Positions 1-64,000 of a stretch of 64,000 bases of DNA are shown here, in pieces. A program made the position numbers and the translations under genes. Within the stretch, counting starts at the first letter, position 1, and every line of letters starts with the position of its first letter. The notes under the pieces were generated by a model. That model was not told the DNA's origin. It ran no database searches and saw only the letters and a program-made list of their open reading frames with translations. The DNA is from Hirudo medicinalis (lineage: Eukaryota > Annelida > Clitellata > Hirudinida > Hirudinidae): assembly GCA_011800805.1 (NCBI GenBank), contig MPNW01000009.1, positions 201,004-265,003 on the forward strand. The letters run 5' to 3'.

Positions 1-1440
1 TTCTTCCATTACATAATTATTAAATCATAAGATGCCAGAGTTCATGCCAAAGAGCAATATAATCCAAGCACGTGCACATGCTACCTACTTCGTGACACCA
101 CTAAGCCTCGGTGCATACAGCTAGTGAAGAACTCAAAGCAGGAATAAGAGAACTGCTCGAGAATGTTAAAGAAACATTTAAACTTTAAACAATTTAAAAA
201 TAACTTTATAGGCAGAATATCTTGTGTATGCTGCCATTGCGATCATGTTGTAATGTTTCTCTTCATTTCCTTCGGCATGTCAACCAACATAAGTTCTTCC
301 TAAGATTGGCTAATTTGAGAGAATCGTTGACAGTCATTTGTTTTTTCAAAGAATTTGATGAATTTGATGAAATATTAATTCTTATTAGGCGATAAATAAA
401 AGATGGAAAAGCAAAATAAGAAAGTGTATCGGTTGCTTATTGATATCCTCAAAACTCGATGTTTGAACACCTTGCTTCAAACTGATGAAAATATTTGATA
501 ATGTAAACTCTAATATCTGAAATGAGATAAGAAGGTTAATTCAACCTTATTCACAAATGCGGGAGTTGAGTTTAGTGAGGTTGAATGAGTCGAAAATAGA
601 ATGATATTCTGAAAGTTGACGATAATGCTATATATGGATAATACGTAATTCCTATAAATGTTATTAGTAAATAATAACATGTGAAACATTGCATCGATGA
701 AACGTAGGCTTCTGTGCTTGAAGTGCGGAGACTCAGCAGGAGACAAAACTCATGACTTCGTTCAATCTTCCTTCCAAAATCACAAAATTCTCACAGAATT
801 GGCTGGTACTTGCTACTCTCCCATTTATTTGTCTGGTCGAAGAATGATTTCTGTAGAAAAGTGTAAAGTTCAGAAAAGTCGAAAGCTGAAAACAACTGAA
901 ATGTTTGAAAACAAACATTATAAAGTGAATAATCACTTTCAAAACAAACTTAATTATATTTTAGCATTCATGAAATATTATTGTAGAAAATATGCATTTG
1001 TTAAATATTGTTATTAAACCATCCAACTATTAAAGATCTTATGGGAAAGTCTCAAAGTACAATCCTGGCCATTGAGTGAGTTACAATAACATACAACTTG
1101 TTAATAACATACAACTTTCTTAGTTAATTAACAAAGTCGACCCTTAACCCTAGACGTGATTGACAAAAGTGAGCATTGATTCAAACCATTCAACATCAAT
1201 ATTACCTGCAGAAATGATTAGTTTCGTAGAATCTTCTATTTTTCGATAATTTATCAATTGCATATTGATAAATTGAATTCAGTTTCAATATATTTTGAGT
1301 TTTTAACCTCTTCGTGCGTCCAAACTTACAATAATGTATAATTTAGCACAACAGCAACAATTCCTACCTCAAGGTAACTAAAGTCGAAAATCCCCCCCCT
1401 CATTTTTTCCGTTCAGGGAGCACTAAAAGTCGGACTTTTG
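1..1440. other. Intergenic, no supported gene
   Basis: AT-rich sequence. Open frames are short and show no family resemblance, splice structure or codon pattern. A C-rich stretch near 1390-1400 precedes the LINE 3' end. Confidence 0.5.
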
Positions 1441-3308
1441 TTTATTTTATTAAAGTCCATTGCTTAACTGAGATGATTTGGACTTGTTAGTTAGTGTTAG
1501 CGATAATAAAATAAAAAATTGTTAGAAGATTAAGTAGTCAGTTTAAAAGAATGTTAGATTAAAATAATGCATATTTAATTAATTAATTAATAGTCCACTT
1601 TTCACAAATCCACCTGTATATGAGGTCCACACTTGCTGGATTGCTAAGCATGGGACTCATCTCGGTTAGATTTGTTTTAAGGCGTATTTTTTCTCTTAGG
1701 ACTGATTGGGCCGGACATTCCATGATGAATTGACGGACAGTTTCATCCTCCTGAGTGCAAACTTCACATTTGCCATCTGGATGGCGCTTCATACCATGAC
1801 AAATACCATGAAGAGAAACAAGCACCGATTCAGAGCAAGACGGAGACTGGAAATGAAGGTCTCCTTCCTCCTTGAGACACATTGGAATTTGCTCTTCATC
1901 GATACAAGTTTCTCTATACTCTTGTAATGGAGGCTTCTTGGGTCTTCCCATCTGGTTTTCCACTGTTGGATAATGTTGGGCCACAGACCTTTTGACATAC
2001 TTGACAGACGCTGGAATTCATCGGTCTATCTGCTCCCTGGTAGTGTCGGTTTTTGTTAGAGCATCGGCCTTCTCATTGCCATAGATTCCAACATGGGCGG
2101 GAACCCAGACGAGGACTTTTCTTCATTCATCTTGAATTTCTGAAATCAGAGAGCGTTTTGTAGATATCTCGATCTTTATAGTTGCAATCCTTTAGTGCCT
2201 GGCGCTAAGGGAATCGCTATGATAGGAAAATGACTATATTGAAGTTCTCCCCCTGATAGGAGTCCTTCACATGGAGTAAACACTCCACTACAGCTGCTAG
2301 TTCGGTCGAACTTATGCGATTATGACTTGACATCCTGAGGCTGATATCAACTTGCTTCTCTGGAATGAATATTCCAATTCCGACCCTGTCGTCCGAGGTC
2401 TTGGAGGCGTCTGTCTAGCAGAGGAGGTTTCCTTGGAGATCCTCGATTTTTTCCCTTGTAATGAGCATCCTCAGAAGGTTGTCGGCTGCTATGGAGAGGT
2501 TCGAGGTGTCGATCTATGTCATTTTCAGTCTCCAGGGGGAAGTTGTGGGAGCCTCCTCTACAATCTCTTAGGAGATCTCTCAGAAGCAGGGACTCAATCG
2601 TCTCGACTGGAGTGGAGATTCCTTTTTCTTCATCATGAGGTGATGCCTCGCTTGAGCCTTGGACTTCCTGCCATTAGAAATTAAATGTTTGTTATTAAGA
2701 GACTTGTTTTGTGTAGCGATGAACCTGAGGGCATGGTTTGCCATGAGCTAACGACGTAGGTCGAGAGGAAGCTCACCTCATTCCACTAGCAGAGACGAGG
2801 CACTCATTCGTGCCACCATAACAGATCTTCAATGCTTGTTACTGGATCTTGTTGTAGACGTCCTTGGTGTGCCTGCACCCTAGTCAAGTAGAGAGTCAAG
2901 GAGAGAGAGGATGGTGGCCCTGTAGACTTGCAGCAGGCTGGATTTATTTGCACCCCATGAGCTCCTCGAAATGGCTTTATGTGCATTGAGGCATTTGATG
3001 CAGCGGATTCTGACATCTGCCTGAGCAGACCAACTTAGTCTTGCATCCAGTGCAATACCTAAGAAGGTGGCCGTCGGAGACAGGGGGATTCCCTTGCCGA
3101 TACGAAGTCTGCTATTGGCCTCGCTCCTCTTGACCCTGCTATTGGTAAATAAAACTGCTTGGGATTCAGACGCTGAGATCTTGAAACCATTAGCATAGAA
3201 ACTTAGCCGTATCGTCGAGTTTTCTAAAAATTGGACCATTTGAGCCTGCATTTTATACGCCTGGTTACGAAATTCTTTCTTTGATAACGTCATATGAACA
3301 TTCAACAT
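1441..3308 (-). mobile_element. Degenerate LINE with RNase H domain (I/Jockey-like)
   Basis: Read on the minus strand, this is the 3' half of a non-LTR retrotransposon broken by many stops and frameshifts. At 3308-2880 it encodes the end of a reverse transcriptase and thumb (FLGIALDARLSW, then an LLQVYRATILSLLDS helix). At about 2420-2280 comes an RNase H core (VGIGIFIPE, then ISSTELAAVVECL), and at about 2120-2040 the RNase H hallmark WVPAHVGIYGNEKADAL. A terminal CCHC-like segment follows at 1984-1583 (HPDGKCEVC, FIMECPAQS). The 3' end at about 1500-1441 carries CCAAATCATCT and GGACTTTAATAAAATAAA, shared with the copy near 63.0 kb. The element is dead. Exact clade needs a tree. Confidence 0.85.
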
Positions 3309-4682
3309 GAATTTAGAGTTAGAAGGTGTGATTTTCTAGATTTAAATGGGTTATTGTAGCGAAATATTTTTATTGAATCTTTTTAGAAGTTTTCATCATG
3401 AGTTGCCTCAAGAGTTGCATCATGAGTTGGCATGGCATCACTTAAACAAAAATCTCAAATAGTATATAATTTTCAAATTTATTTTGACGATTTTAAATGA
3501 TGAATATAATAATATCAATATGCTCTTTAGAACGCAACAATTCGAAGAATTTGTTACATTTGGATAATCGGCACAATAAACAGGTCCACAAACGAAAATA
3601 TTATTTAAGTGCTGATTTTAACCCAATATTATTTACTTTGTTGAATCCTTTAATAGCAAATAACTTAGTGAGAAAATGAGGCCTAGTTGGGTTGTCAGGT
3701 GGGACGTCATGTCATTTCAGTTGTTTTCAGGACGGCAGGCCTTCGCTCAACCATTCAAAATTAATTGACGAACTATTTTTGAGTGTCAAACTTATAAGCT
3801 GAGAGGAGTTAAGATCTTTACCAAAAAATATTTATCTGGTACTGAATTCTAAGAGAAGAAGACTGCTCAAAAGCACCACTTTCGTCCCATTACTGCCCCT
3901 GAGTTTCTTTTTATCATCTTCTCCAACCACTATACTAATGTTAAACATTGCCAGCACAACATCAGCTTTCAGCAATCTATTAATGATCTCCTTCCTGGTT
4001 GGTCTATTGGGAATTAGGATTTGCAAGTTAAATTTGAAATTGACATTACTGAAAACAATTTCACTTACTGCTACAAATTCAGCTTTTAGACCTGCACAAG
4101 GGGATATCTAAGCAAAATGCTATACCCTGCCTAGTATGAAGGTCAAAAGGTTTGCTCACCAAAGCTGAATAAATACAGCAAAATAGAAATAGTCATAGAA
4201 AGAAAAACAAGTAAATTTCCAACATTCAGAAATTGAAATCAAAGGCCATGATCAGCAGCATACTCTTCTCCAGCAATCAGAAAATGAAATCTTACAGCAT
4301 TAACTAAAACATGTCAAGAATGAATTTACACACATACTCAGAAAGCATATAATATTAATTATTACCCAACACAACTCCAAACAAGTGACTCTTATTGTAA
4401 AAAAGAGTTGACATCTGAAATTGGCTTTGAGGTCCTCCATTTCAATTCTTCTAGAAGTCACATGAATATGCCCTATGAGCCCAGGATAAACTAATTAAAA
4501 GATCTCTTCTGAATTAAACAGAAACAAAATTAACATCCTGGACACACTTTATTAAACATCAAGTCAAATAGCCATAACTAAATTGGCCAATTTGAAATTC
4601 ATATTACAATTCAATGGCACAAATCAAAATTCAAGAAATTGAAGACTATAAATAATTGAACATTTCTCAATGACTACAAAGT
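3309..4682. other. Intergenic, no supported gene
   Basis: No coding signal or recognisable repeat. The last few hundred bases probably hold the 3' UTR of the minus-strand gene that stops at 4683. Confidence 0.45.
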
Positions 4683-5707
4683 TTAAAACAATTTTGATGG
4701 CTCATTGGCAATGTAGCACTCAATTCTGTAGTTACTTCCATAGTTGTTATCCCAAAAGATTTGATTTGAAGAAACAAACATGACTGAAAATTCCATGCTA
4801 TTTCCAAACTGGAAATACTCAGGGATGTGGATCGAATATGAAAATTTATCTGTTGCTCCATCGTTTGAACCGGAGTCATACACTGCTGCAACGTCTGTAT
4901 AAGTCAACCAACCATTCATGGTGTATCTAATATTGACAACCTTATGGAAAGCCATGTTCATAACTCTAATTTTCCCATACACAAGGCTTTTATGATCATC
5001 AACAAAACAGTTTTCCAACAAAACTTTTCTTTCTTGAACACGACGAAGGAAGTCGGGACTGTTATCTGGAGATGAGAAGCAAATGCATAACTTGCGAACT
5101 TGAATGAAATTGATTTTATTAGCAGAGGAACATTCTTCGTCCAAGTTGAGATTCCTCATGGCAGATTCAGGCACAATTGGCGGTTCATCCAAGTCAATGA
5201 CATGCCTTATAGAAGCCAGATCAAGGCCTAGGCATCAGCAAACCTGACAGCTTTCTTCTTGCCGGGAGTTGAAGGAGGTGTCTTGCTTGTCTTGAGGGAT
5301 ATGCACTTTCTCAAGTTTTTTTCTCTGAGATATTCAAACTCATTGTCTTCAGAGAATGTTGTTGTACTTCCAGCAGCAGCTTGCAAAATAGCTGCATTAG
5401 CCAAACGATTCTCAGCTTTTTCATCTTCAGATATTCCAAGAATCAGACTTAACTGTAGATTTCCTGGTTTGATGCCAGTTTGGTTCCGAAGACTATCTGC
5501 TTCCACATTAATATCTTCAAGACTAGATCGGCTGCTAGTTCTGTTGGTGTGTATGGAATCAGTATCACTCACTGACAGTGAAAACTGTGCATAACGTAAA
5601 CTTCTGTCAGGAGATTCACGATAAACGTCCAAGTTCCTAAGAGCAAAGTCTTGGCTACTTTGATTAGGTGATCTGAGCGCACTTATACTATCACTGGAAT
5701 CCCCCAT
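4683..5707 (-). CDS. PPP1R3: Protein phosphatase 1 glycogen-targeting regulatory subunit (PPP1R3-like), frameshifted
   Basis: Single-exon gene, as usual for this family. The product brings PP1 to glycogen, where it dephosphorylates glycogen synthase and phosphorylase. The N-terminal half is Ser/Thr-rich and ends in the PP1-docking RVxF-type motif KKAVRFADA. The second half is a CBM21 carbohydrate-binding domain: family landmarks GLDLASIRHV, CFVDDHKSLVYGKIRV, VVNIRYTMNGW, DKFSYSIHIP and a final NNYGSNYRIE block. Between VRFADA and LGLDLAS the frame shifts by one base at about 5228-5232 (GATGCCTAG where GATGCCCTAG would read through). The two parts are otherwise contiguous and together give about 341 residues. 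The start used is the ATG at 5707 (MGDSSDS); one 12 codons upstream is possible. The break may be an assembly error or real inactivation. The family assignment is firm, the vertebrate-style letter is not. Confidence 0.9.
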
Positions 5708-5743
5708 CTGGTTTGTTAAATAACGCAGGAAGTAACATGGCAC

Positions 5744-6812
5744 AGTTTTGTTTCTGGATGAGACGAACTACGAGTTTCTTCAAAATAATCCTGAAACAAA
5801 TGCTCGCGGTTCTGCAAACGAGTGCCCTCGACGGTAACCTTCGTCCCGGCGCGTTTCTCCTTGTTTAGGTCAGAGATTTATTTTGGTACCTGCTCTCTAC
5901 TTCTTTCTTTAAGTTTTTTTTTAGTGAAAATTATGTGTTTTGCATATGTGCTAGGACGGAATGTCTGATTAAGGTACTTGATAACCATAACCATCAAGAT
6001 CTGAAATGAGAGTTTATTAGTATTTATTACTTGTCAAATTTTGATATGTTAATAGTTTCGAAGAATTGGTAAGAACCAGCCTTAACGCCATTAAATTAAA
6101 AGTAATTCAAAAGCATTTTATATTCGATGAATAGCAAACAGCTGAATAAATTAAAGTCTCTTTGCAATGCTAAATTTTTCTAAAGAAGTCACATTTTAAT
6201 TTATAAGATGCCGGTTAAAAGCAAATTTGGAAACCATCTTCTAGAAACGAAGCTATCAAGCTTTGGATGTGAAAGATTTAATAGTGCGGGATGGAGGACT
6301 TAACCTTCCTTGAAACATTTTCATAGAAAAAATTCAGTCTAGCGCAAGGTTGTCATTTACGGGTAGGGAGGGAAACGCTCCCTGACATTTGTTAAAAATC
6401 AAAAAAGGTCTTAGACCCTAGAGTGTTTCTATATACCATTCTCCCTTGAAATAAATGATTTTAAACTCCCCCTCCCCCTTGTCAAGAATTATCAAACTTT
6501 TTCAACCCCCCCCTATTTTGTTGACATAATTTATGGATATCCCTTTAGAGTTAATTATTTTGATGTACAAGCAAAATATTGACCTATATCTAGACGCTCA
6601 AAACCTTGCAACGTTGATTGCAGAAATTTTCAAATGTATTTAATCAATAACAAAGTATAAAAAATATTACACATAACCCGCTCACACATTTCAGGTATAA
6701 GTTTGCTCAACGTAGCCTCATCGATCAGTCAACGTAAACTTCCGGTTGACACGCGACGTGTTAGCTTATTGCCGGATTATGAGGATCGGTAGATATTAGA
6801 AAGACTTAAGAA
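5744..6812. promoter_or_regulatory. Divergent intergenic region between the PPP1R3-like gene and ZnT7
   Basis: The two genes start about 1.1 kb apart and point away from each other, so both promoters should lie here. No TATA box or other motif could be assigned with confidence. The middle is occupied by a dispersed repeat. Confidence 0.4.
6355..6545. repeat. Dispersed repeat with C-rich core, related to copies at 26.5 and 27.4 kb
   Basis: The block with CTCCCCCTCCCCCTT, then CAAGAATTATCAAACTTT and TTGTTGACATAATT recurs in inverted orientation at about 26540-26605 and in part near 27430-27485 (GGGGTTGACATAATTAATGG). No coding capacity is seen. It may be a MITE-like or other non-autonomous element. 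Confidence 0.55.
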
Positions 6813-25881: not shown

Positions 25882-26010
25882 CAGTGGTTCGCAACCCGTT
25901 GGCCGTTTAAGTCCAAATCATCTTAGTTATGCAACGGACTTTAATCAAATAAATAAATAAATAAATAACCCGTTGGCCGCGGACCAAAAGTAGGCCCGTG
26001 TCAGGAATAT
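25882..26010. mobile_element. hAT-like element end interrupted by a LINE tail
   Basis: CAGTGGTTCGCAACCCGTTG resembles the terminal inverted repeat of hAT/Charlie-type DNA transposons. The element is split by a 61-base LINE tail at 25906-25966. Confidence 0.55.
25906..25966 (+). mobile_element. Severely 5'-truncated LINE insertion with 13-bp target-site duplication
   Basis: The insert is only the 3' end of the RNase H LINE (CCAAATCATCTTAGTTATGC, ACGGACTTTAATCAAATAAA, then AATA repeats). It is flanked by perfect copies of AACCCGTTGGCCG at 25893-25905 and 25967-25979, the duplicated target. This fixes the exact 3' terminus of the LINE. Confidence 0.88.
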
Positions 26011-43374: not shown

Positions 43375-46300
43375 TCAAATGCCCAATAGTTTAACGCTAG
43401 CTATTCTGCTTTCATGCACCACCAACTGAACTCTTGCTGTCAAAACAATATACATTAGTTGTTGTGACTAGTACAACATTCGCGAAATAAACTTAATTTA
43501 GGCTATCTTAACTTCAATGTTACAATTGATTATATTGTTTAAAACTACTCCAGAAGATTCTAAATGTAAAATGAAAACGTGCGTTACCAGTTGAACTAAG
43601 TCTTTCATTTTCTGCCTTGTAGAAATCTAACGTCTCCTGTTGATTCTGTGAAGTTTTGACAGCTTTCTGATAATCATATTTTAATCTTTGGTTGAGATCG
43701 AGAAGTTGATCAATTTCTCTCCTCTGCTTCTCGTTTTCTAATTGTTTCTTTGGAAATAAATTATTTCCATGAAAACACGATGATTAACCGCATGATCAAA
43801 AGTACTAACTTCGGCCAAAGCTTGTTCGTACTTTATTAAACTTTCTTCCAAGTGTTTGCATTGACTGCTCAGTTCATCGCAATTCTGGATTGAGCAAGTC
43901 TTTAAAAGTGCAAGGAAACTTATTAGAGAAACTACGATAATAAATTTGATTATATTGGTTAGTAAAACGCAGTAATTCATCGAAACATGTAATCTTCCAC
44001 TGATGAGGTAAATGATGAGAAAAATCTAATAACGTATTTTTAAGACTATAACACACAGAGGTGCATGATGAGGTTTGACACTCATGGTAGTTGAATCACC
44101 AATGACATCACGATAATATTTCATGCATGATTTAGTGATTATAAGTACTACATTATGATAAATTATCACGTTATCATTCTGTAGTTAAAAATGGTCGTTG
44201 TTTAAACACTTTAACGAAGCAGCGGCTGAAATCGGCATTGATAACAAAGTTATGTACACATGATGGTCATGCATCAAAAAAACCTAAAAAACCTTTCCTG
44301 AAATCGATTTATACTTAATAAAAGCATGGCATGAAAGCGATTTGTTCGCTTCCTCATGCTTAACTTTTAAGTCGTTCTACTAGTAAAAAAAAACATATGC
44401 TTATATTCAGGTCACGATGAAACTTCAAATTAGTTTCAATATCACAAGCATACTTTAATTAATTATAATATTCTTAATACCGCCGTACTTTTCATAAAAT
44501 GCGGGCGTCCTTGGTCAGCCACCAATTCATAAATCAATAAATAAATTGGATTTGGACGGGACAAATCAAAATAGGCATCGGAACTTTTAAGTGTGGTGAA
44601 TTCAGCAGCGGCAACCAATAACTGCTGGAGTAGCAGCATAGCGAAGTAACCGGAATAGTAAGAGAAAGAGAAGGGAAGAATGCCAAAATACTTGTTCATT
44701 AACGTCCGTTGCATAGCTAGACGATTAGGACGGCGCTCCCGCAACGGGATTCGAATCCGTGCTGCCATCGTGAGAGGTGTAAGTCCTAACCATTGGACTA
44801 TGCGGGAGCACAAGGGAAGAATGCCCTGACATAGCTTCTTAAATAGCCCGTCAGGACAAAGGGGTACTTCGGTGTTCCCGCATGGTCTAGTGGTTGTGAC
44901 TTCTGCCTCTCACTACGGGTTCGATCGAATCCCGTTGTGGGACCGTCCGAATCATCTTGCTATAATAAATTTATATAAATATAATACGTTAATAAACAAT
45001 TTATTTATTTATGGAGAATGTAAAACAAAGAATGCGAGATAATGCGCGCCTGGTAAGTCATCGCTGATAGGGTTAGAATCAATACGTGATTATGCTGAAT
45101 GTGCGATCCTACAATTCCATCGTAGCTAACGCAACAATTAGATGAATAAATTGCTTTGAGATTCCAAAGAATTAATTAAAAATTTGTTGTTATTCACGAT
45201 ATGATTTTAATTATTTATGAAGTTTACCAGCAAATGAACAAATTAAAAACTCTCTGGCTTCTTTGTCCAGTTAACAGAGTTATTTGTTAAAATATCACAA
45301 CTAAAACATCACATAACTGACGCAACATTTTTTTACCCACCATTTTATATCGTACAATGCAATGGTACATTTCTCTGAATTTTGGTTTAACTTGAATTTG
45401 TTTTAATTTAAGTTTTTAAGCCAGTATTGCGATATTGAGATTCTAGAATGGTTATTAAACATATATCAGTCTTCATAATAACTATAAATAATTGTTAAGT
45501 TATTGCATTGTTTCATAGAAAGGTATGACAACATAAGCACAACGGTTTCAATGTTTAAATTCGAATTATTTTCTATAGTATAAGGGTTCAAGCTTAATAG
45601 ACACAACATTTCAGGTAAATTATAACTTAAAAATAAAAATTGTTTTGAAAAAATAATAATTAAATATAAATATAATAAATATATATAAATAATAATAAAT
45701 AAATAAAAAAATAATAATAATTGATTTGCAGATTTTGATATTGTTAGAATTGTTTATTGTTAAATTTTAGCAAATGCAGCATTGATTTCATGTAGATTTG
45801 GCACATTGAAGCCATCTACAAAAAAATCACACTTTTATGAATTTCAGCACAATCAGGTGCTCTTGGCCATTTGAAGATGACTTCAGAATTCTTTGTGATC
45901 TTGTTTGGGAATTTCATGTGCCAGAAGCCAGATTTGTTACTTGTCTTCGCACGACATATGCAAACTCTTGTAACAGAGTCAGCTGCAAAATATCTTAGTA
46001 CCTCATCGAAAAGTGACAATTCTAGTAGTACAATTGGATCTGGTGTTGTTGAGTCAAAGATCTTAAAAGTTTTAAAATTAACAGATTGTTCTTGAAAACG
46101 CTGTGCTGAACAGAAAGGAAAGGACTAATGACTGAGATATCAACACACCATTAGCCTTGACATAGTGCAGGTCATGAGAAGAGGGAATTCTCTTTTGTTC
46201 GTTGTTCTCCCACAAGATTGCAGCTCAGTATAATTTCAACATCTTGAGATTTCAGAAACAGGATGCTGATATTTGAATACGCCTCTTGTGCGCACTTCGA

Positions 46301-51559: not shown

Positions 51560-52510
51560 ATTATCCTTTTATCCTGATGCTCCAATCTTTCTACTATGCC
51601 AAATCTGCTCGAAAGACTCATTCTGTCCAGAATTCGCCCCCATATTAACGCATCCTCAAACTGCTCTTCTTTCCAATCCTCTTTGGCTACAATCTTACCT
51701 TTCCAACCCCATAAATGAAGATTGGCGACAACTTCTCCACTCCAGTTGAACGTCTTGTTGGCGTTCCTCGGGGCTTTGTCCTGAGACCTTTGCTTTTCAC
51801 TTTTGTCCAACATTATTCACTATTTCAAAGTATTCTTTCATCAATATGCAGACGACAGTGCTCCCGCATGGTCTAATGGTTAAGACTTCCGCCTTTCACG
51901 ATGGCAGCGCGTATTCGAATCCCGTTGAGGGAGCACCGTACTAATCATCTTGCTATGCAACGAACGTTAATAAGCAATTTTTATGTAGATGACACAATCT
52001 GATTCTCTATCACCTCCATCCATAGCCGATCAAATCGAAATCTGCGGGAGTGCACAGATGCCATCAATGATTGGCATCTCGTTAATTTTCTTCAACGAAA
52101 TCCACAGAAATCCGAAATCATATTCATCGGCACAACTACCCGCCTCAAAACTCTGTCTCCTAAACGTTGCTGGCACTCTCCTTCCTTCCTCTACTAACCT
52201 TAAACTCCTCGGTGTTATTTTTGATTCTCACCTCAGCTTTGACCTCACCTCAGAACATTCCGCCTCCATCGTCAAATCAATGTAATCTGGGCAATACTGC
52301 ATATCTGTCCAATCCTCTCCGTCGACACAACTTCTCCCCTCGCTCGTAGTCTTGTTCTCGCCTGAACTACTGCAATTCCCTTTTCTACGATACATCTGCC
52401 TCTTTGATTCATTCCTCGCAACGCGTACAAAATAAACTTGTTAAACTTATTCTCCTTAACCCTATCATAACCTATCATTGTTCAGGTCTTCCTCACATGT
52501 AATTCGTTCC
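51560..52510 (+). mobile_element. L2/CR1-type LINE fragment, degenerate
   Basis: Conceptual translation gives LLERLILSRIRPHI, then VGVPRGFVLRPLLFTF (the GVPQGSVLGPLLF motif), then a YADD/YVDD catalytic motif split by a SINE, LLGVIFDSHLSF and SRLNYCNSLFYDT. Many stops; non-functional. The group is that of the 27.7-kb and 61.8-kb copies. Confidence 0.85.
51857..51981 (+). mobile_element. tRNA-Glu-derived SINE (family A, copy 3)
   Basis: Head GTGCTCCCGCATGGTCTAAT, anticodon loop CTTTCAC (TTC at the Glu position), B box GTATTCGAATCCCGTTG, tail ACTAATCATCTTGCTATGCA, ACGAACGTTAATAAGCAATT. Flanked by TATGCAGACGAC (51845-51856) and TATGTAGATGAC (51982-51993), a 12-bp target duplication with two later changes. 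Confidence 0.92.
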
Positions 52511-53112
52511 ATATTTTCCAAAAAACGTCTGACAACGTCTCTCCGGCAATGTTAACTAGTCCACAAACAAAAATAAATAAAAAATGTTGATGTTAAGAAA
52601 GCCTCATAAAGTAGTTATGAGATGCCCCAAATATTTTTTATTCATGCATTTCACAACTAGATCCCTAAGTAGAAAATCCTTATTCCCAACCCAGAAGCTG
52701 AACGGAAAACAGCTCGATTTTGTGACTTTTAAAGAATTATCGCATGCTGACAATAAAAGTCAATAAAAGGTTGGAAGCATTGGATGACACTATCTAAATT
52801 CTTACTAACTTATGCTCATGTAGTATGTACCTCCACGGTCGTATATCTAGCGTTTTGGTCTGTGCTTTCAGACTTTATTAAGGTTAGTTTGAAAATATTA
52901 AGACAACTTAGTGGTGAAAAAAATTATAAAATGGTATAAAGTCCTGATATCACATGTAAACATGTAAAGTGGGTGTGCCAGTAGCACTTAGTGACTCCTT
53001 ACAGCTAAAGGCTTACGTGTCTGCCGAGCTAAGCGTGATTGCATCACTTTCTTGTCATCGCTTCTTCTTTTTGGTTTCTGCAGGTCGCTATTTTTGGAGG
53101 AGTGATACAAAA

Positions 53113-62852: not shown

Positions 62853-62984
62853 CATCACCCAAATCACTTATGTGTACGCAGAACAACACTGGACCAGCAA
62901 TGACCCATGTGTGGCGCCGCTTATATTAGCGCAGGTTGCCATTCTGAGTAAATTCCTCCCATTCCTACCTTTTGTCTCTTATTT

Positions 62985-63722
62985 ATTTATTTGATTAAAG
63001 TCCGTTGCATAACTAAGATGATTTGGACTTGTCAGTTAGTGTTAGGTATTGTAATGAAATAATAAGTATTAGAGTAATAATAGTTGTAGGAGGTTAAATT
63101 ATATAAATAATAAAATCATTAATAATATTAGATAGAGTAACTATTTAAAATAAATTAATCCGAATTTTGCAAATCCACCTGAAAATGAGGTCCACACTTG
63201 CTGGGTTGCTGAGCATGGAACTCATCTCAGATAGATTTGTTCGGGTTCTTATTTCTTCCCTCAGGACTGACTGGGCCGGACATTCCATGAGGAAATGCCG
63301 GACATTTTCATCCTCCTGAGGGCATACCTGGCNTCTCAGATAGATTTGTTCGGGTTCTTATTTCTTCCCTCAGGACTGACTGGGCCGGACATTCCATGAG
63401 GAAATGCCGGACATTTTCATCCTCCTGAGGGCATACCTGGCATTTTCCGTCTGGATGACGCTTCAAGAGAAACAGGTGTTGATTCAGAGCACATTTTCCA
63501 ATACGGAGTTTGGAGATTAAAATCTCCTTCCTCCTTGAGGCACATTGGAACTTGCTCTTAGTCGACACGAGTTTCTCTTTAGTCTTGTAGTGTTGGCTTC
63601 GTGGGTCAGAGACCCATCTGGTTTGCCACTGTTGGATGATGTTGTGACCCACGGCTCTTTTTACATCCTTGATAGACGCTGGTATCCAGCGGTCTATCAG
63701 TTCCCTGGTAGTGGCGGCACCT
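62985..63722 (-). mobile_element. RNase H-type LINE, second copy (3' part)
   Basis: Minus strand: RELIDRWIPASIKDVKRAVG, WQTRWVSDPRSQHYKTKEKL, KRHPDGKCQVCPQEDENVRH, FLMECPAQSVLREE. This matches the 1.6-2.0 kb copy closely. The 3' end at 62985-63050 reads CAAGTCCAAATCATCTTAGT, TATGCAACGGACTTTAATC and AAATAAATAAATAAG. The element carries a one-base assembly gap and a duplicated 108-base block. Confidence 0.88.
63225..63441. other. Assembly join: 108-base block duplicated around a single N
   Basis: 63225-63332 and 63334-63441 are the same sequence (starting TCTCAGATAGATTTGTTCGG, ending GGGCATACCTGGC), separated by one N at 63333. This is typical of two contig ends joined without merging their overlap. 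Confidence 0.88.
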
Positions 63723-63975
63723 TTTGTCTCCTAACTCTCAACACTTATATAATGGTAAAAGGCAGGCTTTAAGCTAGGCAGTAGCAGACTGGTGCGCCCC
63801 TTCTTATGAAACATGCTTAAAATAGTATTTCAAGTAATAACCAAAAATTTCCTCTTAATAACCTATCAATGTCTTAATAATCATTCAATGCCTGTCACAT
63901 TGAATAGCAATTACATCGTCCTCGTCTTAATATAACCGTCGGTAATACCGTTCGATATTATCGATATCCATGAAA

Positions 63976-64000
63976 GTGTTGGTAGCCGAGTGGTTAAGGC
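63976..64000 (+). tRNA. 5' part of a class II tRNA (Leu or Ser), cut by window end
   Basis: GTGTTGG acceptor strand, TA linker, then GCCGAGTGGTTAAGGC, the D arm/A box typical of tRNA-Leu and tRNA-Ser. The anticodon lies beyond the window. It could also be the head of a tRNA-derived SINE. Confidence 0.6.

Follow-up and report, generated by a model that had tools for sequence, protein, structure and literature searches.

Repeats in the window

The window, meaning the whole 64-kb stretch of Hirudo medicinalis DNA that we analyzed, holds copies of a SINE, copies of a LINE that carries RNase H, and one insertion made of little more than a LINE-type tail. These features, with the target site duplications (TSDs) given where they help to define an element, are as follows.

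1437..3335, minus strand: LINE copy, 3' end with a hairpin at about 1446-1485
25906..25966, plus strand: LINE-type tail-only (hairpin) insertion of 61 bp, TSD AACCCGTTGGCCG at 25893-25905 and 25967-25979
44685..44811, minus strand: SINE copy, full length, exact 14-bp TSD at 44671-44684 and 44812-44825
44838..44846, no strand assigned: near-palindromic CTTAAATAG (TATTTAA on the minus strand), between two divergent SINEs
44872..44985, plus strand: degraded SINE copy with an interrupted tail, end approximate
51858..51981, plus strand: the SINE copy that is the subject of this report, with a 4-nt leader, a tRNA-like head, and a hairpin tail
62982..64000, minus strand: LINE copy cut off by the edge of the window, with a hairpin at about 62991-63028

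The SINE is about 125 bp long, non-coding, and dispersed, and its copies have TSDs. A preliminary description of this DNA had given these SINEs a tRNA-Glu head. ARAGORN agreed when it was run on a sequence typed from common copies, reading the head as tRNA-Glu(CTC) behind a four-base leader. The Rfam tRNA model scored 39.7 bits for the 44.7-kb copy (44685..44811) and 26.3 bits for the copy at 51858..51981, which is under the gathering score of 29. ARAGORN reported 0 tRNAs in the 64-kb window and also 0 in the 44.7-kb copy at its default threshold. Judged by its tRNA-like head and its short, dispersed, non-coding copies with TSDs, the SINE is a tRNA-derived element. Leader and head are predicted to fold into an extended acceptor stem of 11 bp. 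Because the head ends in GCACC, we considered whether the SINE arose through a template jump to a tRNA ending in CCA. This idea was dropped, since GCACC pairs with the 5' leader in the 11-bp stem. Three SINE copies (L070, L072, and L078) start within the T-arm of the head, which is possibly a second stopping place of the enzyme.

The SINE at 51858..51981 is flanked by a TSD at 51845-51857 and 51982-51994 (11/13 identical), and its hairpin stem has two substitutions (GTAC..GAAC instead of GTCC..GGAC). Upstream there is only a weak TATA-like TATTTCA by eye, starting 24 bp before the TSD. This copy is housed in the decayed RT-like frame of another LINE (51600-52600, with a YADD motif by eye). The other two SINEs diverge from the one near-palindromic CTTAAATAG. 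From the start of its TATTTAA to the TSD of the left SINE there are 20 bp, and from the start of its TTAAATA to the 5' end of the right SINE there are, by arithmetic, 33 bp. No TSD was found for the right, degraded SINE (44872..44985).

The preliminary description had credited the LINE with an RNase H domain, and a search with Pfam bears this out: the reading frame of LINE copies L016 and L032 matches PF00075 with 49.3 bits against a cut-off of 25.8. A zinc-finger-like C-terminal stretch follows RNase H in LINE copies, and its zf-RVT score of 22.9 bits is below the cut-off of 27.5. Upstream of RNase H, an RT-like C-terminal piece is recognizable by eye, and Pfam gives 0 hits for that piece. 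RNase H-bearing LINEs are placed in the I group, to which this LINE may belong. What remains in the copy at 1437..3335 is decayed: an RNase H piece (21.4 bits, below the cut-off) and, by eye, RT-like and zinc-finger-like pieces. The copy at 62982..64000 has the C-terminal zinc-finger region upstream of its hairpin (zf-RVT, 22.1 bits, below the cut-off).

Inside the latter LINE, the window has an exact 108-bp tandem duplication (63225-63441) joined by a single N at 63333. N-joined duplicates also occur at L004/L005, at L008, and in a COX1-like piece of contig C456. They look like assembly artefacts, and therefore tandem SINE pairs have to be treated with care. Median divergence from the family's own majority sequence was 1.8% for SINE copies (n=15) and 5.1% for LINE 3' parts (n=26), but we claim no age order because these samples favor copies close to the query.

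Three other observations concern coding sequences. In the window, two open frames adjoin at 4683-5767 (minus strand). A CBM_21 domain is encoded in one of them (E 4e-27), and there is a resemblance to a glycogen-targeting phosphatase subunit. The COX1 on C456 (L085/L086, C456:12202-13068) is of mitochondrial type (TGA = Trp), and its 112-kb contig carries further open frames. This COX1 is perhaps a nuclear copy of mitochondrial DNA. Contig C459 (L084, C459:20763-22199) has bacterial-looking cytochrome oxidase genes, with long frames without TGA, which by eye are probably from an associated bacterium.

The SINE and the LINE have a common 3' tail

The preliminary description proposed that the SINE tails resemble the 3' ends of the RNase H LINE at 1.45, 25.91, and 63.0 kb, over about 37 bases and as far as the tRNA body. 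The LINE tail matches at 36/36 positions at 25913-25948 (plus strand) and 63026-62991 (minus strand), and at 32/36 positions at 1481-1446 (minus strand). SINE tails lie at 51941-51973 (plus strand) and 44729-44698 (minus strand), and they match the LINE tail with 87% identity over 30 columns and 83% over 36 columns, respectively. The third SINE tail is broken, with 17 matching bases at 44947-44963 (plus strand; E 0.022). Thus, the similarity is found in the places given for it and spans 30 to 36 bases. The common region is the 3' hairpin plus TTAAT, and it begins at the end of the tRNA body. LINE 3' ends at 1.45 and 63.0 kb were also correctly recognized. The match at 25.91 kb does not end a longer LINE copy; it is the 61-bp tail-only insertion between 13-bp direct repeats.

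Representative tails of the two families, read from copies, agree in 38/50 columns (z of 11.2 against shuffles), and TATGCAACGGAC is identical in both. We also counted matches in the 133-Mb assembly (1557 contigs). There were 600 matches to the LINE-type core (24 places) at ≤2 mismatches, 393 to the SINE tail (29 bases) at ≤3 mismatches, and 366 to the SINE head at ≤3 mismatches in 29 bases, with 0 matches to the reversed pattern in each case. The exact 25-base 3' part of the LINE-type tail occurs in 308 places. We rejected chance or a common simple repeat as the source of the tail similarity and consider it practically out of the question. AT-rich 3' repeats are the one feature that speaks for it, and against it are the z of 11, the empty reversed searches, a compensatory stem pair between the families, and the target sites that SINE and LINE tails share, the last two of which are described below.

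A predicted hairpin in three families

The tails of the LINE, the SINE, and a third family, family C, are predicted to fold into one two-tier 3' hairpin. It has an outer stem around GTCC..GGAC, a symmetric internal loop (4x4 in the LINE, 4x4 in the SINE, and 3x3 in family C), and an inner part with a CAU/AUG stem and a loop of 6-7 bases. The LINE has A-U as the closing pair of GTCC..GGAC, the SINE has C-G, and family C has U-A. This is a compensatory change, seen as three states of one pair in three family sequences and not as a broad covariation test. Compared with shuffles, fold stability had z values of -2.6 (LINE), -0.75 (SINE), and -2.3 (family C). The SINE hairpin alone is not unusually stable, as 41/200 shuffles were equally stable.

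Family C raises the question of which LINE serves the SINE. The true partner might be another LINE of the hairpin group (the parent of family C or an unsampled sibling), with the RNase H LINE a cousin. Family C has a hairpin related to that of the SINE (34/50 columns, z of 7.3), both contain GTCCTA, and the targeting of family C is the same (12/12 sites; see below). However, the RNase H LINE is closer to the SINE by both measures, and its tail has TATGCAACGGAC exactly as in the SINE. Also, SINE-type tails without an A three bases before GTCC, of which 11 of 15 were examined, included no LINE; those 11 were SINE copies, truncated SINEs, and tail-only insertions. We therefore consider a different partner unlikely. 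The sequence comparisons support the RNase H LINE as the closest tail found for the SINE, although not as its proven sole partner, given the related hairpin and same targeting of family C.

Tail-only insertions

Many LINE-type tails are not attached to a LINE. Among the first 47 listed of the 308 places with the exact 25-base 3' part, 31 contain hardly anything beyond the hairpin, and 15 continue into the 3'UTR as judged by script, with one more (L040) by eye. Read by eye, the 5' ends of the 31 tail-only copies lie at the hairpin base in 22 and inside the hairpin in 9. Many tail-only copies are flanked by exact direct repeats of 8-16 bp. Genome-wide, there are 600 LINE tails versus at least 109 with the 3'UTR junction, whose pattern overlooks a 3'UTR variant that has a short deletion; the tail, head, and junction patterns differ in strictness. 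In family C, 6/20 loci have a common upstream parent sequence and 14/20 are tail-only by eye, 11 of which carry an exact duplication. SINEs seem to be mostly full length (393 tails versus 366 heads).

The preliminary description held that a broad occurrence of the shared segment in unrelated repeats would count against a partnership. The segment is indeed widespread outside long LINE copies and SINEs. However, the cases examined are tail-only insertions that follow the same target rule as the other elements.

Plain drop-off of the enzyme at the hairpin is weakened as the whole cause of tail-only copies, because the SINEs seem to be mostly full length. It is possible, if on balance doubtful, that tail-only insertions stem from a short RNA of their own, namely a processed 3' fragment, which would be a minimal third passenger and not an abortive LINE copy. 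Tail-only insertions are the majority for the LINE and seemingly rare for the SINE, a contrast that plain drop-off does not predict. Conversely, the spread of 5' ends between the hairpin base and its interior is what early drop-off predicts, and the genome-wide counts come from patterns of unequal strictness.

Integration at a fixed distance from a TATA box

To locate insertion points, TSDs were detected by the direct repeat alone, with TATA ignored. This gave 64 TSD events, of which 20 were dropped because they were nested, within an element, of low complexity, or had <45 bases of flank; besides artefacts, the filter removed at least 3 TATA-bearing or AT-repeat sites (L111, L112, and L119). 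Of the 44 remaining TSD-bounded insertions, 39 had a TATA score of ≥3.5 at positions -24..-17 from the TSD start, a slot that was chosen after seeing the same 44 sites. The mirrored control (other side, other strand) reached this score in 2/44. Other eight-position slots had 1-5 sites, and the slots that overlap the peak by two positions had 6 and 9. By manual count, the slot was occupied in 17/20 LINE tails, 10/12 SINEs, and 12/12 family C insertions. There was no TATA-like hit in the slot at 5/44 sites. Some of the 44 sites share flanking repeats, and a crude grouping gave 25 groups, in 24 of which the first member had its best hit in the slot.

In the 44 events, A or T makes up 80-100% of each column from 20 to 14 bases ahead of the duplication. 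No clear motif other than TATAWAA is seen near the insertion sites, and there is no initiator motif at the insertion point. In the 40 sites with their best hit in the slot, the insertion point is 29-35 bp past the TATA start, with a mode of 33. The tail-only insertion in the window (L043) has only a weak CTTAAAG at the TATA position.

SINE flanks fetched later served as a validation set of 20, two of which were N (L133 and L135). A TATA score of ≥5 was found in 9/18, versus 4.7% of random window positions, and a score of ≥3.5 in 12/18, versus 15.6%. The other 6/18 scored <3.5. L141 was read on the wrong strand and is counted as a miss. Genome-wide, with an exact 15-base hairpin word, TATAWA preceded the LINE hairpin at the expected spacing in 104 cases versus 6 at a spacing 20 bp larger. 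Both counts include overlapping hits (81 distinct ends among 100 listed of the 104, and 4 distinct of the 6). For longer LINE copies, a candidate duplication was present in 6/23 scanned 3' ends, and one, 56 kb away, was left out as spurious. Three of the five with a believable candidate (L014, L021, and L031) fit the TATA spacing; TATA was weak in L035 and absent in L036. For the LINE, the SINE, and family C alike, insertions thus lie at a set distance past a TATA box.

Targets include AT repeats as well as sites within other repeats. One sequence, GGCATTCTTCCC or near relatives of it, several with TATTTAAG upstream, is hit repeatedly by these elements (L055, L125, L126, L031, L010, L011, L102, and window 44812-44850), and these targets look like one multicopy sequence.

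The ORF counts give no sign that these TATA boxes lead into genes. ORFs of ≥100 aa were counted around 30 of the 44 sites: downstream there were 13 in sense and 7 in antisense, and upstream 21 in sense and 18 in antisense. These counts do not support the idea that active-gene promoters are the targets.

The spacing seen at the insertions is that between a TATA box and its start site. For this reason, and because the ORF1 protein of the Dictyostelium LINE TRE5-A binds TBP in vitro (PMC5391098), the idea that TBP or an open complex guides integration is appealing. We lean slightly toward the view that DNA-bound TBP or an initiation complex, rather than a DNA-binding domain of the element, determines the place of integration. 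Two observations speak for recognition by the element itself: downstream ORFs are not in excess over upstream ones, and targets include AT repeats (L076 and L112). The element's protein might bind TATA-like DNA about 33 bp from the nick, with no part played by transcription factors, and we find this quite conceivable, if somewhat short of probable. It would also suit the missing initiator motif and the position of the SINE at 51858..51981 in a decayed LINE reading frame. Against it, the motif is TATAWAA, which is more specific than AT-rich DNA, the spacing has the promoter-like value just mentioned, and TRE5-A provides a precedent.

Sites used more than once

At seven loci, two insertions of different families occupy one target. 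At L004/L039, L079, and L082, these are a LINE tail and a SINE, bounded by three copies of the target (the SINE of L004 is an N-joined pair and possibly an artefact). Similarly, three target copies enclose a LINE tail and a C tail at L055 and L101, a C tail and a SINE tail at L077, and a LINE tail and a SINE tail at L075. A site can be used again because the TATA box and the first target copy survive each insertion.

A model for the partnership

The SINE-LINE partnership suggested in the preliminary description is supported by matching tails, a common hairpin with a compensatory change, the same kind of target, and sometimes the same site. We consider it highly probable that the SINE depends for its mobility in trans on the RNase H LINE, or on a close sibling, by way of the common 3' RNA hairpin, and that the machinery integrates at a fixed TATA spacing. 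In this process, the LINE protein would read or bind the hairpin of both LINE and SINE RNA. It would then nick the strand opposite the element at the downstream end of the future duplication, about 33 bp after the TATA start, and the nick would start target-primed reverse transcription. The target duplication starts about 20 bp and ends about 33 bp after the TATA start, and the element is oriented in the direction in which the adjoining TATA would fire.

A more specific form of the TBP-guided model is put forward tentatively, and we would not call it probable. The LINE, the SINE, and their sibling family might integrate into an open initiation complex, with staggered nicks at the edges of the melted promoter, so that the 9-15 bp duplication would correspond to the transcription bubble. 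With every insertion the site would regenerate next to the TATA box, and later insertions would stack between the TATA box and older ones.

If the model of trans-mobilization with TATA-spaced integration is true, the genome contains at least some eighty natural insertions from which TATA-linked sites can be placed with a precision of about 3 bases. There would also be a possible route by which 5' leaders gain hairpins and SINEs. The way in which a LINE locates promoter-like DNA could be studied here as a test case.

Comparison with known systems

The eel has a stringent pair made up of UnaSINE and UnaL2. Tail sharing of the kind described here is, as the preliminary description stated, already known for stringent SINE-LINE pairs. 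A survey covered 58 such pairs (cited in PMC3747384), and stem-loop tails in common are established for stringent LINEs (PMC3747384, PMC4176376). The present pair is like these in having a tRNA head and a LINE-derived 3' tail with a stem-loop. It differs in that the common part is only about 37 bases, the LINE has RNase H, and integration is TATA-spaced. Among the papers listed in searches on LINE targeting of TATA boxes or promoters, largely outside subscription journals, there was no LINE or SINE described as having a fixed TATA spacing. SINE-LINE pairs themselves are known, and the TATA-spaced LINE and SINE may be what is new here.

Other elements with a preferred place of integration resemble this system in part. 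The R1 clade, R2, NeSL, Utopia, and Keno are target-specific LINEs that use a particular multicopy gene or repeat (PMC4640811). Each family has a fixed target, as here, but the target of our elements is a short motif some way from the insertion point, in sequences of diverse kinds. Yeast Ty3 integrates in a narrow window near Pol III-transcribed genes (PMC8632968). The narrow window is similar, but Ty3 is an LTR element. TRE5-A integrates about 47 bp upstream of tRNA genes in a B box-dependent manner (PMC5391098). Both are LINEs at a fixed distance from an initiation landmark, which in our case is a TATA motif known from sequence alone. Unlike TRE5-A, the LINE described here inserts about 33 bp downstream of the TATA start, and it does so together with a SINE and tail-only passengers.
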